Part shown: piece by piece, positions 15,942-27,294 of the stretch
How positions within the stretch are numbered: the stretch's first letter is position 1
Layout of the letters: the number at the start of each line of letters is the position of its first letter
Origin: a virus
Virus record (IMG/VR): IMGVR_UViG_3300021085_000169
Location: 1 to 27,294 of that record
Length of the DNA stretch: 27,294 nt
Reading direction: 5' to 3' (one strand)
Position numbers and translations under genes: made by a program
The notes under the pieces: generated by a model
The model's input: only the letters and a program-made list of their open reading frames with translations
What the model was told of the DNA's origin: nothing
Databases searched by the model: none

Positions 15942-15970
15942 AGTATACACTAAGATGTCTTACTTGTCAA
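15942..15970 (-). promoter_or_regulatory. Early sigma-70 promoter P1
   Basis: Minus-strand TTGACA (15965-15970), 17-bp spacer, TATACT (15942-15947). The spacer holds the inverted repeat AAGA-TG-TCTT (15952-15961). A 59-bp block around it (15929-15987) matches the block around P2 at 50 of 59 positions without gaps. Drives the four-gene cassette 15898-15026. Confidence 0.85.
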
Positions 15971-15976
15971 CCTTTT

Positions 15977-16004
15977 AATTAAAATAAGGGGTTTCCCCCT
16001 TATT
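15977..16004 (-). terminator. Intrinsic terminator of the 16007-16630 gene
   Basis: Minus-strand stem AATAAGGGG/CCCCTTATT with a GAAA tetraloop, followed by TTAATTAAAAGG. It starts three bases after the stop codon and is followed seven bases later by the P1 -35. Sequence and design are shared with the 16674-16699 terminator. Confidence 0.8.
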
Positions 16005-16006
16005 GT

Positions 16007-16630
16007 TTATGCTGGCACTTGAACTTTACCATCTGGTGACTGTATGCTATGCGTTAACTTGTGATTTGCCATTACTTCTTTGGCATATTCACGCACCTCA
16101 TCAGCTGATCTCCACAATGGACCATCTGTTCCAGCACCTACACCCGGTGTCACTTCAAACTCAATCACACAACCCAAGTTGTCTAAGTCTAACTCATGTG
16201 GTCCTGTCTTACCTGACATTACTTTAAACAACTCTGAGCCTTGTTTTCTTACCATTTGCAATGATGGTGATTCAGCTAGATACATTGTGGCAAGTATTAT
16301 TGCTGTGTTATTGTGGCCCCATTTTCGGCCTAAACCACCAATTAACTCATCTCTGTTTTGTTTACACCTATTTGGGATTATAACTTCACCGTGTTGGAAC
16401 TCTCTGATTTTACCATCTTTTTTGCTGATGATTAGCAACGAACACGCATCACCGCCAGTTGATCCATTATACTTATGCCATTCTGGTGAGTCCCATATAT
16501 GATCTGGACCTTTGTCATACGCCTGTTGTAGTAGTTTCTGATCTATGTTTGATGATCTTTTCTTTGCATTGTAAGGATTAGTTTTCTTACGGGCTTTTTG
16601 TCTTGCTTTACCAATTAATTTCTTACTCAT
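16007..16630 (-). CDS. 207-residue protein with a basic N-terminus, unknown function
   Basis: The N-terminal 30 residues are strongly basic (LIGKARQKARKKTNPYNAKK) and probably bind nucleic acid. The rest is a mixed alpha/beta domain with SLLIISKKDGKIREFQHGEV, a cysteine (NRCKQNRDELIGGLGRKWGH) and helix NNTAIILATMYLAES, ending IEFEVTPGVGAGTDG and a helical tail. I do not recognise a family; the Cys/His pairs are not arranged as a zinc finger. It has the strongest ribosome site in the window (CAGGAGGT). It sits between two related hairpin terminators, with a leader that carries the TAAGCA-TTAT-TGCTTA hairpin. A separate promoter is not obvious, so read-through from P3 may express it. Confidence 0.75.
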   Translation of the reverse strand: MSKKLIGKARQKARKKTNPYNAKKRSSNIDQKLLQQAYDKGPDHIWDSPEWHKYNGSTGGDACSLLIISKKDGKIREFQHGEVIIPNRCKQNRDELIGGLGRKWGHNNTAIILATMYLAESPSLQMVRKQGSELFKVMSGKTGPHELDLDNLGCVIEFEVTPGVGAGTDGPLWRSADEVREYAKEVMANHKLTHSIQSPDGKVQVPA

Positions 16631-16655
16631 TGTGTGACCTCCTGGTCTTAGTTAT

Positions 16656-16671
16656 TAAGCATTATTGCTTA
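16656..16671 (-). promoter_or_regulatory. Leader hairpin TAAGCA/TGCTTA, copy 1
   Basis: The plus strand reads TAAGCATTATTGCTTA, a 6-bp stem with a four-base loop, 26-41 bases before the start at 16630. The identical 16 bases occur in the leader of the gene starting at 17676. Possible RNA-binding site for a translational regulator, or a 5'-end stabiliser. Confidence 0.5.
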
Positions 16672-16673
16672 GT

Positions 16674-16699
16674 TAAAATAAGGGGGAAGCCCCCCTTAT
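16674..16699 (-). terminator. Intrinsic terminator of the 16701-17258 gene
   Basis: Minus-strand stem ATAAGGGGG/CCCCCTTAT (9 bp) with a GCTT loop, followed by TTTAAC. It begins one base after the stop codon. The short T-run suggests incomplete termination, allowing the downstream gene to be read. Confidence 0.75.
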
Positions 16700-16700
16700 G

Positions 16701-17258
16701 TTAGTCCCACACTCTATACAATGCGTCACTATCTACACCTTCGTAGTAAGGTGTTTGACTTTCTGGTTTTGTTGTTTCGTATGCTATATGTGATGCAATG
16801 TATCCAATAACACTAGATGATGCATTTAACCTTAACGCTGCAATTGTTCTGTTTAGCACGTCATCTTTTGATATAACTGTTTCATTATTCCAGTTATGTC
16901 CTGCATCATCAAGTTGGTCTTGCTTAACTCCCATCATTAAGCTGCCTTTTTTAGTAAACAACTGCCACAACGCAACAAGTTTATCACCTGAGTGATCTGA
17001 TATAGCCTTTACAGCATTGTTATTGATGTGCAATGCAGCAGTCACACGTGATCCGCCAAATGTTAGTTGCTTAGTTGTAAGCGTTGGACTGTCTATCATG
17101 CTCATATCAATGTTAGCTTGATCACAAGCGTCAAGCAAGTGTGCCATTGCTTGTTTGTCTGCGTTTTGTTTAGCATCAAAGTAGTCATTCATGCTATCAT
17201 AACTTATAACACCGTTTGGTGTCCATGCTTCAACGCCTTTTTTAGTTTCTGTAGTCAT
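16701..17258 (-). CDS. 185-residue early protein, unknown function
   Basis: A soluble, mainly helical protein. It begins MTTETKKGVEAWTPNGVISY, followed by an acidic helical stretch (HLLDACDQANIDMSMIDSP) and a strand pair around KQLTFGGSRVTAALHINN. A helix then runs through DHSGDKLVALWQLFTKKG, and the C-terminal helices contain NRTIAALRLNASSSVIGYIA. I do not recognise a family, membrane span or catalytic motif. It is the only gene clearly under P3, which is a full-consensus promoter, so it is probably made early and abundantly. ATG at 17256-17258 has CGGAG upstream. Confidence 0.75.
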   Translation of the reverse strand: MTTETKKGVEAWTPNGVISYDSMNDYFDAKQNADKQAMAHLLDACDQANIDMSMIDSPTLTTKQLTFGGSRVTAALHINNNAVKAISDHSGDKLVALWQLFTKKGSLMMGVKQDQLDDAGHNWNNETVISKDDVLNRTIAALRLNASSSVIGYIASHIAYETTKPESQTPYYEGVDSDALYRVWD

Positions 17259-17306
17259 TGTATTTCTCCGTATTATTAAAAGATATAACTTAATTGTTAT
17301 ATGTAT

Positions 17307-17335
17307 ATTATAGCAAGACTTCTTGCTTTTGTCAA
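17307..17335 (-). promoter_or_regulatory. Early sigma-70 promoter P3 (full consensus)
   Basis: Minus-strand TTGACA (17330-17335), 17 bp, TATAAT (17307-17312). The spacer contains a 14-bp inverted repeat GCAAGA-CT-TCTTGC (17313-17326), the most complete version of the AAGA-NN-TCTT element. The -35 lies nine bases past the stop of the preceding gene. Drives 17258-16701. Confidence 0.9.
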
Positions 17336-17343
17336 CCTTTTTT

Positions 17344-17676
17344 TTAACTTAATGCTAAAGTTAAAGCATCATTGCGTTTAAGTTTCTGTAGTATTACCGC
17401 AGCCTTCTTAAAGCATATTTCTACTTTCTTACCTTCTGTCATAACACTGTATACCAAACCAGTTGCAATGTCAACAGCAATTACAACAGGTATTTTAGCA
17501 ATCATTAATACATAATCAACCATTGTAGTGTTATGAATATGATGTTTGTATTTCTGAACGTAAATAGCCTCACTAAGTGAAAGCGTGTAAGTCTTGTTAA
17601 AATCAACTTTAACACCCAATCTACTTTGTAAGCGTTGTCCAACATGTTGTCCTTGAAATTTTGCTGCTGTAATCAT
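17344..17676 (-). CDS. 110-residue basic early protein, unknown function
   Basis: Starts MITAAKFQGQHVGQRLQSRL at ATG 17674-17676, which has CGGAG seven bases upstream; a longer frame from 17703 would include the leader hairpin. It is basic, with several histidines (YVQKYKHHIHNTTMVDYVLM), a hydrophobic strand region IAKIPVVIAVDIATGLVYSV and a basic C-terminus (KKAAVILQKLKRNDALTLAL). The hydrophobic stretch is interrupted by charged residues and looks like buried strands rather than a membrane span. A small nucleic-acid-binding protein would fit its charge; I cannot name a family. It has its own full-consensus promoter P2 and a hairpin leader. Confidence 0.7.
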   Translation of the reverse strand: MITAAKFQGQHVGQRLQSRLGVKVDFNKTYTLSLSEAIYVQKYKHHIHNTTMVDYVLMIAKIPVVIAVDIATGLVYSVMTEGKKVEICFKKAAVILQKLKRNDALTLALS

Positions 17677-17696
17677 TGTTAACTCCGTTTGTGTTA

Positions 17697-17712
17697 TAAG
17701 CATTATTGCTTA
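17697..17712 (-). promoter_or_regulatory. Leader hairpin TAAGCA/TGCTTA, copy 2
   Basis: Identical to 16656-16671 in sequence and orientation. It lies 21-36 bases before the start at 17676 and about 16 bases downstream of the predicted P2 transcription start. Confidence 0.5.
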
Positions 17713-17734
17713 ATTTCTTACTGTCTATACTAAT

Positions 17735-17763
17735 ATTATACGGCAAGATGTCTCGGTTGTCAA
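17735..17763 (-). promoter_or_regulatory. Early sigma-70 promoter P2 (full consensus, second -35 upstream)
   Basis: Minus-strand TTGACA (17758-17763), 17 bp, TATAAT (17735-17740). A second TTGACA at 17781-17786 lies exactly 17 bp further upstream. The spacer has AAGATGTCTC (17745-17754), a one-base variant of the P1 inverted repeat. Drives 17676-17344. Confidence 0.9.
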
Positions 17764-17787
17764 CCTTTTAATGAAAATAATGTCAAG

Positions 17788-17813
17788 AAAAAACCCATAT
17801 ATTTCAATGGGTT
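17788..17813 (-). terminator. Intrinsic terminator after the 18404-17839 unit
   Basis: Minus-strand stem AACCCAT/ATGGGTT with an 8-base loop, followed by TTTT and C. It lies about 25 bases past the stop at 17839. The T-tract is followed by CTTGACA, as at the other terminators with the GTCAAGAAAAAA block. Confidence 0.8.
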
Positions 17814-17838
17814 AAAATTTATTTTAAATTAATTTGAT

Positions 17839-18156
17839 TTATTTTGCAAATTTTCTGTCTACACCCTTGCGTTGTTCTTCAAAAAACATGGCTGTTGCCA
17901 GTAATCTTTCACGTCTTTGGTTAATAGTAGGGTGTGTTAAGCGCCATAAGAACTCAGCATCTTTGGCATTTAAGCGTTTGTATTCACTTAAATTCCATCT
18001 TTTCATTACAGCCTTGCAATGATCAAACTGTTCTGGTGCTATATTGTAATTGTGCATAGTTCGTTTGCTGTGTTTAACCAACCAAGTGTGTGCTGGTGTT
18101 TTGTGGTGGTTAACACTCCACCATTTACGAAAATGTTTTAGTCTATCTGTATTCAT
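17839..18156 (-). CDS. 105-residue strongly basic helical protein, unknown function
   Basis: Rich in Lys, Arg, His and Trp: MNTDRLKHFRKWWSVNHHKT, HTWLVKHSKRTMHNYN, EYKRLNAKDAEFLWRLTHP and a C-terminal helix INQRRERLLATAMFFEEQRK. Its composition suggests binding to nucleic acid. I find no zinc-binding or HTH pattern. ATG at 18154-18156 has AAAGGAG and follows the upstream gene by eleven bases, so the two form an operon under P4. A terminator follows. Confidence 0.7.
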   Translation of the reverse strand: MNTDRLKHFRKWWSVNHHKTPAHTWLVKHSKRTMHNYNIAPEQFDHCKAVMKRWNLSEYKRLNAKDAEFLWRLTHPTINQRRERLLATAMFFEEQRKGVDRKFAK

Positions 18157-18167
18157 GTTTTTCTCCT

Positions 18168-18404
18168 TTAGTGTTTGCGTATAAACGCTTCTCTGTCAAA
18201 TACTGCTTTGCAGTTCATGTTGTTTCTTTGTGTTTGTGATAGTTTACTGAATTCCTTCATGCTCATATCATAGATTTTATGTCCAGTCCAAACATCACGA
18301 AACTTCATTATCATCCAATCTTTTTCCCATTCAGAATAATCCTTATATTCCTTTTGGTCTACATATCTCATGCCATCTTCATAGCTGTATATTTCTATTA
18401 CCAT
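18168..18404 (-). CDS. 78-residue early protein, unknown function
   Basis: Starts MVIEIYSYEDGMRYVDQKEY, acidic and tyrosine-rich, then EWEKDWMIMKFRDVWTGHKI, and ends in a basic stretch (CKAVFDREAFIRKH). ATG at 18402-18404 with AAGGAG upstream. It is the first open frame after a leader of about 400 bases from P4, so expression may be controlled by that RNA. No recognisable family. Confidence 0.65.
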   Translation of the reverse strand: MVIEIYSYEDGMRYVDQKEYKDYSEWEKDWMIMKFRDVWTGHKIYDMSMKEFSKLSQTQRNNMNCKAVFDREAFIRKH

Positions 18405-18428
18405 ATTAGTATTTACTCCTTTATAATC

Positions 18429-18812
18429 TGTTCCCTTTCAGGCAACAGAAAACATCAAAACTCTAAAGAGTTTTTTCTGTTTATTTTTTTCTCTTCTTAA
18501 GTGGAACATTAAACATTTATATGTGGTTTATATGATATAACTTAATTAGATCTTATTACTCACAAGTAGGCTATTACAGCCTAGGGTGTTTTTAGAGACT
18601 ATAAGACATTTGGCTCGTTCCTGCTTACCATACACCAGTGATTTTTAAGAATGCTTTCTGCCTACAGTTGCATTCATATGTCTAGTCAGTTTTCATTAGT
18701 TGGAAAACGCAACCCCTCAAGCAAGTTTCTAAACTAGTGTTTCTCTAGTCTTCAATGCTATGTTGTCAAGGAGGGTATGTAAGGGTTCTGTGTTAGTTTT
18801 GTATTAGCCATT
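18429..18812 (-). ncRNA. Candidate structured RNA or long regulatory leader
   Basis: A gap of about 400 bases in an otherwise dense genome, directly behind a full-consensus promoter (predicted start near 18812). On the minus strand it can form nested stems at its 3' end: TGTTCC/GGAACA (18503-18508 with 18429-18434) encloses AACAGAAAA/TTTTCTGTT (18473-18481 with 18444-18452), which encloses AACTC/GAGTT. An alternative stem CTGTT-CC/GG-AACAG competes with these. Further stems are TAGGCT/AGCCTA (18567-18583) and GTTTTC/GAAAAC (18689-18708), with possible long-range pairing GTAGGC/GCCTAC. The 5' part has ACCCTCCTTG, complementary to ribosome sites. The last stem ends nine bases before the SD of the 18404 gene. 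No open frame with a ribosome site is visible. Confidence 0.45.
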
Positions 18813-18818
18813 GTTAGT

Positions 18819-18847
18819 ATTATATGTTAGTTTTGTTTATTTGTCAA
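18819..18847 (-). promoter_or_regulatory. Early sigma-70 promoter P4 (full consensus)
   Basis: Minus-strand TTGACA (18842-18847), 17 bp, TATAAT (18819-18824). The -35 contains the stop codon of the preceding gene. The 12-mer ACAAAACTAACA lies in the spacer (18825-18836) and again at 18791-18802, just downstream of the start. P4 drives the structured leader and the genes 18404-17839. Confidence 0.9.
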
Positions 18848-19224
18848 CTTATATCAAACATATCATTATCAAAATGTTTCTCAAGTTTTTCAACATCACG
18901 CTTATGAATTAAATCATTTATATGATCATACATATCTTGCTTTGTAGGAAATAACTGTTCCGGTTGTGCTTGTCGTATACTGTCAGCATTAATAAGATGT
19001 TTCTTATTAGGCATTGACTTCAAATTACTTATTACAACACCTTCTTTGCATTGTAGTATATTAAGCCAAGTTGCTGCATTATGTATTTTCTTACCGTTTT
19101 TCTGAAAAGGATACACATATGTCCAAAACTCTTCTAAGTTCTCATTACATATATTTACGTGATAATAGTCATTACCATGACTAGCACTTGTTTCTGTTGT
19201 GTAATTTAAAATATAATATCTCAT
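18844..19224 (-). CDS. 126-residue early protein, unknown function
   Basis: Starts MRYYILNYTTETSASHGNDY, beta-rich and tyrosine-rich, followed by EEFWTYVYPFQKNGKKIHNA. The C-terminal part is helical and charged (KQDMYDHINDLIHKRDVEKL), ending FDNDMFDIS. No membrane span or family is recognised. ATG at 19222-19224 has AGGAG upstream, about 45 bases downstream of the predicted start of promoter P5. Its TGA is part of the P4 -35 box, so the end of this gene and the P4 promoter are constrained together. Confidence 0.7.
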   Translation of the reverse strand: MRYYILNYTTETSASHGNDYYHVNICNENLEEFWTYVYPFQKNGKKIHNAATWLNILQCKEGVVISNLKSMPNKKHLINADSIRQAQPEQLFPTKQDMYDHINDLIHKRDVEKLEKHFDNDMFDIS

Positions 19225-19275
19225 TGTCTCTCCTATAATGTGTAAAAGTTTATTCTTTTACTTAATGTATTTATC

Positions 19276-19304
19276 ATTATACAACAAAAAGACGCTTTTG
19301 TCAA
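19276..19304 (-). promoter_or_regulatory. Early sigma-70 promoter P5 (full consensus)
   Basis: Minus-strand TTGACA (19299-19304), 17 bp, TATAAT (19276-19281). The -35 directly follows the T-tract of the upstream terminator. The spacer lacks the AAGA-NN-TCTT element but has AAAAG-ACG-CTTTT. Drives 19224-18844. Confidence 0.9.
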
Positions 19305-19305
19305 G

Positions 19306-19332
19306 AAAAAAGACGCCTTTCGACGCCTTTTT
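19306..19332 (-). terminator. Intrinsic terminator upstream of P5
   Basis: Minus-strand AAAAAGGCG-(8)-CGTCTTTTTT: nine pairs with one G-U, ending in a T-run. It would stop transcripts arriving from the HTH gene and the gap below it. GACGC-TTT occurs three times here (19291, 19312, 19322). Confidence 0.65.
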
Positions 19333-19336
19333 AGAA

Positions 19337-19529
19337 TCATTGTATAAAGTATTGGGCAGTTCTGCTTTAATATATATGGCACTGTTTCCAGTTACATTTT
19401 GTTGGAGCTAGGCAATGAATCCTAGTATCACCCTTATACAACTGTAAGCTAAAATTGAACATTATTTGGAGAATGTCTGTAATCATTGATTATTTTTTTA
19501 ACTTACTATATATATTTATACACTATAAC
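19337..19529 (-). other. Non-coding gap with several small hairpins
   Basis: 193 bases between the HTH gene and the terminator, with no convincing open frame. Minus-strand stems: CTAGG-(8)-CCTAG, ACTG-GAAA-CAGT (GNRA loop), GCAG-AA-CTGC and GTAT-(7)-ATAC. I tested it by eye for a tRNA and found no acceptor partner. It may be a 3' UTR or a small RNA ending at 19306. Confidence 0.35.
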
Positions 19530-20081
19530 TTAGGTATTGTCAACCTCTAAGAACTCTTTAATATAATCTGGGTTGGCTTTTTTGTATTTCTTTATATGAT
19601 AATATACAGCCGCTGGTGTAACTCCCAATCGTCTGCTTATTTTTGCTGATGACAGTCCTGCACTGTGCCAACTCCATATGTTAGCAGTAAGATCTGCACT
19701 AGGATCAAAATTGTTTGGTATTCCTGGTTTGCGTCCTCGTTTGTTTTGCATGTTAACGCTTTCTTCAGTCCTGTTGTCTATTCTTTCGTCCTGGTTATGT
19801 AGTAATTTTCTTTGCACTGTGTAATCATTTATCTTTGGTCTAACTGGCATGTCGTGTAGTTTTAGCCATTCATTTATGCACAATGCATTTGTGGCAATTG
19901 CCAGTCCATCTTTGTGCATATGATACATGCAGTATGTTCCTGGTATTTCTTTTTTAAATTCTGTATGTAAGAAAACAAAGTGTGTTAGTTTCTTATAATC
20001 TTCTAAATCTAACACTCTTTGAAACATGGCTTTGAGTCTTTGCTTACCACCATATGTGGTATAATCTGTGGGGGTGTTCAT
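19530..20081 (-). CDS. DNA-binding protein with AT-hook-like motif and helix-turn-helix
   Basis: A 183-residue protein. The N-terminal half is a helical domain with several Cys and His (FVFLHTEFKKEIPGTYCMYH) that I do not recognise. Residues about 113-122 contain NKRGRKPGIP, an AT-hook-like core. Residues about 140-170 form a resolvase/MerR-type helix-turn-helix: LSSAKISRRLGVTPAAVYYH followed by a basic recognition-helix end. It is the only clear transcription-factor-like protein in the genome and opens the early region, so it is the natural candidate regulator of the repeated promoter elements downstream; that link is an inference. A small inverted repeat (ACGC/GCGT) lies 22-34 bases before its start. 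ATG at 20079-20081 has AGGA six bases away. It has no integrase or recombinase residues. Confidence 0.75.
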   Translation of the reverse strand: MNTPTDYTTYGGKQRLKAMFQRVLDLEDYKKLTHFVFLHTEFKKEIPGTYCMYHMHKDGLAIATNALCINEWLKLHDMPVRPKINDYTVQRKLLHNQDERIDNRTEESVNMQNKRGRKPGIPNNFDPSADLTANIWSWHSAGLSSAKISRRLGVTPAAVYYHIKKYKKANPDYIKEFLEVDNT

Positions 20082-26870: not shown

Positions 26871-27272
26871 TTAACTAGATGCTCTTCCGAGGTCTCCAGT
26901 TCCAGTAAAGTTAACTGTTGCTTGAACAACATCAGCTGTTTCACCAGTCATTTCAAAGCTAGTAATAATAATATCACCGCTTAAATTTGCGCCTGATCCT
27001 TCTGGGTAAAGAATCATCTGAATGTAATCTGCTGATCCGTCACCAACGCCGGGACGCAAGTAAGTTGTAGATATATCTTGTTTATTGTAGATAAGATCTA
27101 AACTTCCTTCCCAACTCTTCAGAGTAGCAACATGCGTTCTGCTTGACGTTGTGCCTGTTCCAAAGCTGGTTGTTTCTGCTGTTTCAGCCGTCTCAGTTAA
27201 AGAATAAGATGTGATTTGCGCCACATCCGCTGCTTCAAGACTTAGGACACCTGATTTACCTTTTATCGCCAT
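26871..27272 (-). CDS. Major tail tube protein
   Basis: A 133-residue protein, MAIKGKSGVLSLEAADVAQI, then SYSLTETAETAETTSFGTGT, a conserved WEGSLDLIYNKQD stretch, QMILYPEGSGANLSGDIIIT and the end QATVNFTGTGDLGRASS. The pattern -TS-SL-ETAE-TE followed by W-GS-D and a C-terminal VNF-GTG is the major tail tube family of TP901/HK97-type siphophages. It polymerises around the tape measure to make the tail tube. AGGAG upstream. This complete copy is the right-end occurrence of the terminal overlap; the real gene is unique. Confidence 0.9.
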   Translation of the reverse strand: MAIKGKSGVLSLEAADVAQITSYSLTETAETAETTSFGTGTTSSRTHVATLKSWEGSLDLIYNKQDISTTYLRPGVGDGSADYIQMILYPEGSGANLSGDIIITSFEMTGETADVVQATVNFTGTGDLGRASS

Positions 27273-27294
27273 TATATTTCTCCTAAATAATGAT
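27063..27294. repeat. Terminal direct repeat, right copy (contig overlap)
   Basis: Matches 1-232 with one silent difference (27168 G versus 106 A). Joining the ends at this overlap gives a circular map of about 27,062 bp with the tail-tube gene continuous into the tail-terminator gene. Confidence 0.95.

Follow-up and report, generated by a model that had tools for sequence, protein, structure and literature searches.

Behind a full-consensus promoter in a phage genome lie about 400 bases without a credible gene, and the question they raise is what, if anything, is made from them. They occupy positions 18429-18812 of the window, that is, of the whole 27,294-nucleotide stretch of DNA analysed here. 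The window represents a complete genome, about 27.06 kb long, with bases 1-232 repeated at 27063-27294 (99.6% identity). It is of the siphovirus type, with head, tail and terminase genes; no replication, integrase or clear lysis gene was recognised anywhere in it, and about ten small genes without assigned function lie between 14.6 and 20.1 kb. The best matches of the terminase are Pelagibacter and Vibrio phages (about 43% identity) and, together with the IMG/VR sample numbers of the relatives, which we take to be marine, they indicate that this phage is probably marine. Only a few large structured RNAs have been described from phages, and two of them, GOLLD and ROOL, are still without a function; in this genome of about 27 kb, complete but lacking any recognised replication gene, the two structured RNAs described here are prominent in the small non-structural region.

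Since the surrounding genes are all on the minus strand, the RNA reads from 18812 downward (minus strand, as for every window feature given below). Its promoter (18847-18819) matches the consensus at 12 of 12 positions, with TTGACA at 18847-18842 as the -35 hexamer, a 17-nt spacer and TATAAT at 18824-18819 as the -10 hexamer, and a start is expected near 18812. In L005/L114 both hexamers are unchanged, while the 17-nt spacer differs at many positions. The promoter adjoins a 126-aa gene (18844-19224), and the gap extends from there to a 78-aa gene of a 79-aa family (18168-18404), behind which lies a gene for a basic, all-helical protein of 105 aa (17839-18156); neither product has a known domain. 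The 105-aa protein gave a confident helical model (pLDDT 87) with no convincing match among solved structures, and its assignment as a known RNA-binding protein was rejected on these grounds. An intrinsic-terminator-like hairpin at 17813-17792 is the predicted transcript end. In the window, no terminator was recognised behind the RNA and ahead of the 78-aa gene, hairpin alpha (described below) included, so that the transcript probably continues to 17813-17792 with the RNA initially as its 5' part. In a positional sense the RNA may thus be called a leader, as it is probably on the same transcript as the following genes. The units that come after this operon have perfect promoters of their own; in all, the region 15942-19304 carries four perfect TTGACA-17-TATAAT promoters and one matching at 11 of 12 positions, mostly immediately 5' of small uncharacterised genes.

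An open frame conserved in relatives, named in the initial annotation as contrary evidence, was looked for on the RNA strand and not found, either across relatives or across the RNA types described below. A 17-codon frame at the 5' end begins with ATG, TTG or CTG and its stop shifts between copies. We regard it as virtually certain that the RNA is not a protein gene, and the gene-free gap behind a 12/12 promoter is confirmed. As to its folding, the whole 394-nt stretch was more stable than 100 of 100 shuffles (z -2.88), but the core alone was not (z -0.71). Stability was therefore rejected as proof of structure and taken as weak evidence, the strong evidence being the comparison with relatives.

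Among these, L002-L004 are identical and L005/L114 (also a complete genome, of 28,944 bases) shows 95% identity across it. Pattern scans with the 5' motif GGCTAAYACAA..CAGAACCCT and with the promoter start recovered a diverged copy of the window's own RNA type, here called A (L131), six copies of a type B (L106, L115, L117, L132, L144 and L146) and one of a type C (L110), and the same scans yielded a type D in another phage group (L108, L112 and L116). The RNA begins with a repeat-like, unstructured 5' leader (18791-18818, transcribed from about 18812), ACTAACA.TGGCTAATACAA..., which is common to types A, B and C, is present in type D from GGCTAATACAA on, and is missing in L144. The type A core follows at 18560-18790 and starts with CAGAACCC; it is 97% identical in L114 and 85% identical in L131.

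The helices of type A are those of the window's own minimum-energy fold, computed before L131 was found. Helix 1 (18714-18775) consists of CCCUC/GAGGG around AGCAUU/AA..UGCU and a hairpin AGACUAG/CUAGUUU; its inner hairpin shows one two-sided change from U-A to C-G, and its outer pairs are invariant. Helix 2 (18689-18708), GUUUUC/GAAAAC, is GUGUUA/UAACAC in L131, with two two-sided changes. A domain is closed by helix 3 (18597-18687), GACUAGACAU/AUGUCUUAUAGUC, which displays a two-sided A-U to U-A change, and within it helix 4 (18649-18675), GAAUGC/GCAUUC, becomes GAAUAC/GUAUUC in L131 by a two-sided G-C to A-U change. In helix 5 (18567-18583), a hairpin UAGGCUG/UAGCCUA, the change is one-sided, from G-U to G-C. 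Overall, L131 keeps 49 of the 50 predicted pairs with five two-sided compensatory changes. In the type A alignment, which holds three distinct copies only, 99.3% of cells are paired, and slid structures gave 0 or 1 two-sided pairs against these five; when the 13 paired-column substitutions of L131 were re-placed at random, five two-sided changes arose in none of 200,000 placements.

The RNA is also more conserved than its surroundings. Between the window and L131 its core is 85% identical in DNA, against 69% for the 78-aa gene, 74% for the 105-aa gene and 67% upstream, the two products being 56% and 71% identical as proteins; more generally, in comparisons between phages the RNA reaches 85-97% identity where the adjacent genes reach about 60-75%. 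Covariation and conservation are thus both present, and on this comparative evidence there is very little doubt that the stretch encodes a real, conserved, structured RNA, as the initial annotation had proposed.

Its 3' part consists of a tail motif GUUCCACUUAA (18497-18507), common to types A and C and to most type B copies, and of two hairpins. Hairpin alpha (18449-18483) has an AAACA/UGUUU outer stem, an internal loop and a variable inner stem, and its motif turned up solely in loci carrying the RNA; hairpin beta (18428-18448), CUGUU..AACAG, comes immediately after it and occurs with at least five stem sequences, all paired. The two are always adjacent, span about 55 nt and form the 3' end of the RNA, and they fold alike in types A and B despite differing stem sequences (in alpha, inner stems). 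The stems originally named by eye all exist in the sequence and the local hairpins are real, but the outer nested ones, TGTTCC/GGAACA and AACAGAAAA/TTTTCTGTT, are lost in L131, L106, L132 and L110. The hairpin CTGTT../..AACAG, described as competing with them, is kept with several stem sequences, although not as one of a competing pair; since L131 lacks the outer stems and has a CCUGUC/GACAGG hairpin of its own, the supposed competitor is the conserved element. The possible long-range pairing GTAGGC/GCCTAC occurs in all type A copies and is invariant. ACCCTCC, for which an anti-Shine-Dalgarno role had been suggested, is paired with GAGGG in helix 1 and is ACCCTCT in L131, and that role was rejected.

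Type B occupies the same slot behind the same promoter and has a related start CAGAACCC and the 3' two-hairpin module around an unrelated, larger core. In the alignment of its six copies 97.5% of cells are paired and 11 pairs have two-sided changes (0-5 with slid partners), a score flattered by the structure being the consensus of the tested alignment itself; one such change, from CAAGAG/CUCUUG to CAACGG/CCGUUG, is evident directly in the sequence. The 3' half, whose fold is a prediction, is almost invariant and so offers little pair variation. As in type A, the RNA (88-97% identical, one near-identical pair aside) is more conserved than the shared 78-aa and 105-aa genes (59-72%). In L115, L117, L106 and L132 the 5' end motif ACTAATATTGGCTAA is repeated in the middle of type B behind a promoter-like TTGTCT-17-TATACT, which is possibly a second start. 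Type C has a third core in the same slot. L110 and L132 share a motif, GCCAAGCTCAGA.TAACCG.AAGCAAT, downstream of hairpin beta and ahead of the gene that follows, perhaps another structured element. In type D, a fourth core lies beside terminase genes and is 94.6% identical between copies whose flanks are 84-86% identical; only the 27-nt 5' motif is shared with the other types. The type A covariance model detected nothing outside type A, and the type B 5' model gave a weak match at the correct place in type C (14.8 bits, E 0.26); any fold common to the cores of different types is accordingly hypothetical. Types A and B share only the 5' motif and the 3' module, and type D only the 27-nt motif, so that a single family is a hypothesis; we consider it likely that A, B and C form one modular family, and lean slightly towards including type D. 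No DNA relatives of types A-D were found among 50,697 records of isolated phages, a scan of bacterial genomes with the 5' motif gave four matches, all by chance, and the exact type A core pattern retrieved only the known copies and chance matches.

No Rfam family matched the RNA in the window or in the related loci, GOLLD, ROOL and group I introns included (for GOLLD the related loci gave nothing at E<=1), and permissive thresholds gave chance matches only; the search proposed in the initial annotation thus agrees with its view that the RNA is novel. A group I intron (RF00028) was rejected, there being no model match and GACUA..UAGUC being a simple continuous stem with covariation. By ARAGORN and Rfam, no tRNA or tmRNA was found in the window or in 12 related loci. 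The nearest in kind are GOLLD and ROOL, large cage-forming phage RNAs without known function that are often near tRNA islands (PMC12286853). GOLLD (RF02032) is likewise a large structured phage RNA found in marine samples and, like type B, combines a conserved 3' part with a 5' part that is less conserved, the two being joined by a linker of variable length; however, it exceeds 800 nt and often lies near or contains tRNA genes, whereas the present RNA measures about 400-520 nt, has no nearby tRNA genes and does not match the covariance model. ROOL resembles it as a phage RNA of several hundred nucleotides with an elaborate fold and without known function, and differs in the same two respects, covariance-model match and neighbouring tRNAs. 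The RNA fits no known family and is filed under neither.

The genomic context is that of an accessory slot in a recurrent order: upstream gene X, slot, 78/79-aa gene, 105-aa gene. In L122, L125 and L127-L130 the slot is without the RNA; it holds an MT-A70 DNA methyltransferase in L127 and other genes in L122 and L128. The slot proteins of L125 (1805-3259; 484 aa) and L129 (1564-3102; 512 aa) show by eye a polymerase-like HDG motif, with no Pfam or strong PHROG match. Where the RNA is present, the gene following it differs between phages, and its distance after hairpin beta ranges from about 25 to more than 80 nt, both of which speak against a switch that serves a single gene.

We believe that these results are best explained by a structured phage ncRNA that is accessory and modular, shares its transcript with two small genes and probably acts in trans, an explanation held at about even confidence. 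A strong host sigma-70-type promoter would drive synthesis from near 18812, and the RNA would at first form the 5' part of a longer transcript that also covers the 78-aa and 105-aa genes and ends at the 17813-17792 terminator. Hairpins alpha and beta may mark a site of trimming or of partial transcription stop. Once released, the RNA would work in trans as a putative early-expressed accessory factor, either through self-assembly or through binding to a protein or complex of the host or the phage. Action in trans, itself evenly balanced in our judgement, is thought likeliest because of the large conserved core, the exchange of cores, the accessory slot and the separate context of type D.

In the window no terminator stands between the RNA and the genes behind it, and this suits a cis-acting operon leader equally well. 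In such a leader the RNA or its 3' module would modify RNA polymerase or protect the transcript, and the invariably 3'-terminal pair alpha and beta recalls the put RNA of HK022, two stem-loops of about 70 nt that act on their own transcript, with putR about 270 nt from the start (PMC9378689). The likeness concerns alpha and beta only, which resemble put loosely in shape and, like it, are neighbouring stem-loops following a strong phage promoter. The stem-loops of put, which suppress termination in cis, are near the 5' end of an early transcript, and alpha and beta are preceded by a far larger conserved core that places them at a distance of more than 300 nt from the start. A conserved core of 230-430 nt would moreover be unnecessary for that role, and cores are swapped; the genes behind the RNA exist without it in many relatives, the next units have their own promoters, and type D is located apart from these genes. 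A cis-acting leader is possible but rather unlikely. The switching leader that had also been proposed, which would control the 78-aa gene as a riboswitch or translational switch, is much less probable still: the RNA precedes the ribosome-binding site and alternative stems can be drawn by eye, but the outer stems are not conserved, the competing stems are not kept as a pair and the anti-Shine-Dalgarno sequence is sequestered and changing, which leaves the idea without a basis, and the next gene and its distance vary while the 78-aa gene occurs without the RNA in relatives. Least credible of all is non-functional intergenic DNA made to look conserved by recent exchange. Some flanks do match the conservation of the RNA (in L114 the 78-aa gene is conserved as strongly), but compensatory changes do not arise from recent exchange, and the L131 RNA is 15% diverged with its fold kept.

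The CI immunity RNA of phage P4 is carried in a phage operon leader and acts in trans; the present RNA is far larger and more structured, and no antisense pairing was found for it. An immunity or exclusion RNA, with allele-like cores selected for different specificities and directed, as antisense or decoy, at host defence or at related phages, would suit the exchange of cores between conserved ends in an accessory slot and the strong early-type promoter. Nevertheless, antisense matches to the phage's own transcripts reach 12 nt, the same as in shuffles, and we consider this role improbable. More tentatively, types A-D may all be allelic forms within a new class of large, modular RNAs of phages, with constant ends (start motif, tail and two 3' hairpins) and swappable structured cores; such an accessory cassette, alternating with protein genes, would benefit the phage in trans, perhaps in its contest with competing phages or with host defence. 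The alternation with accessory genes such as the methyltransferase may point to a part in conflicts between phage and host or among phages, and the swappable cores constitute natural homologue sets for testing the role of each part.

Just upstream, a second new structured RNA of about 200 nt lies at 19300-19543. It has a separate promoter, TTGACA-17-TATAAA (19543-19515), and an intrinsic terminator, a strong one, is located near 19331-19306; an Rfam search gave no match for this RNA. At least nine related phages carry it too, behind the same HTH gene. Its hairpin P1 shows an A-U to C-G change, and its hairpin P2 occurs with about six different stems, a conserved UUCAU loop and a CUCC 3' flank.
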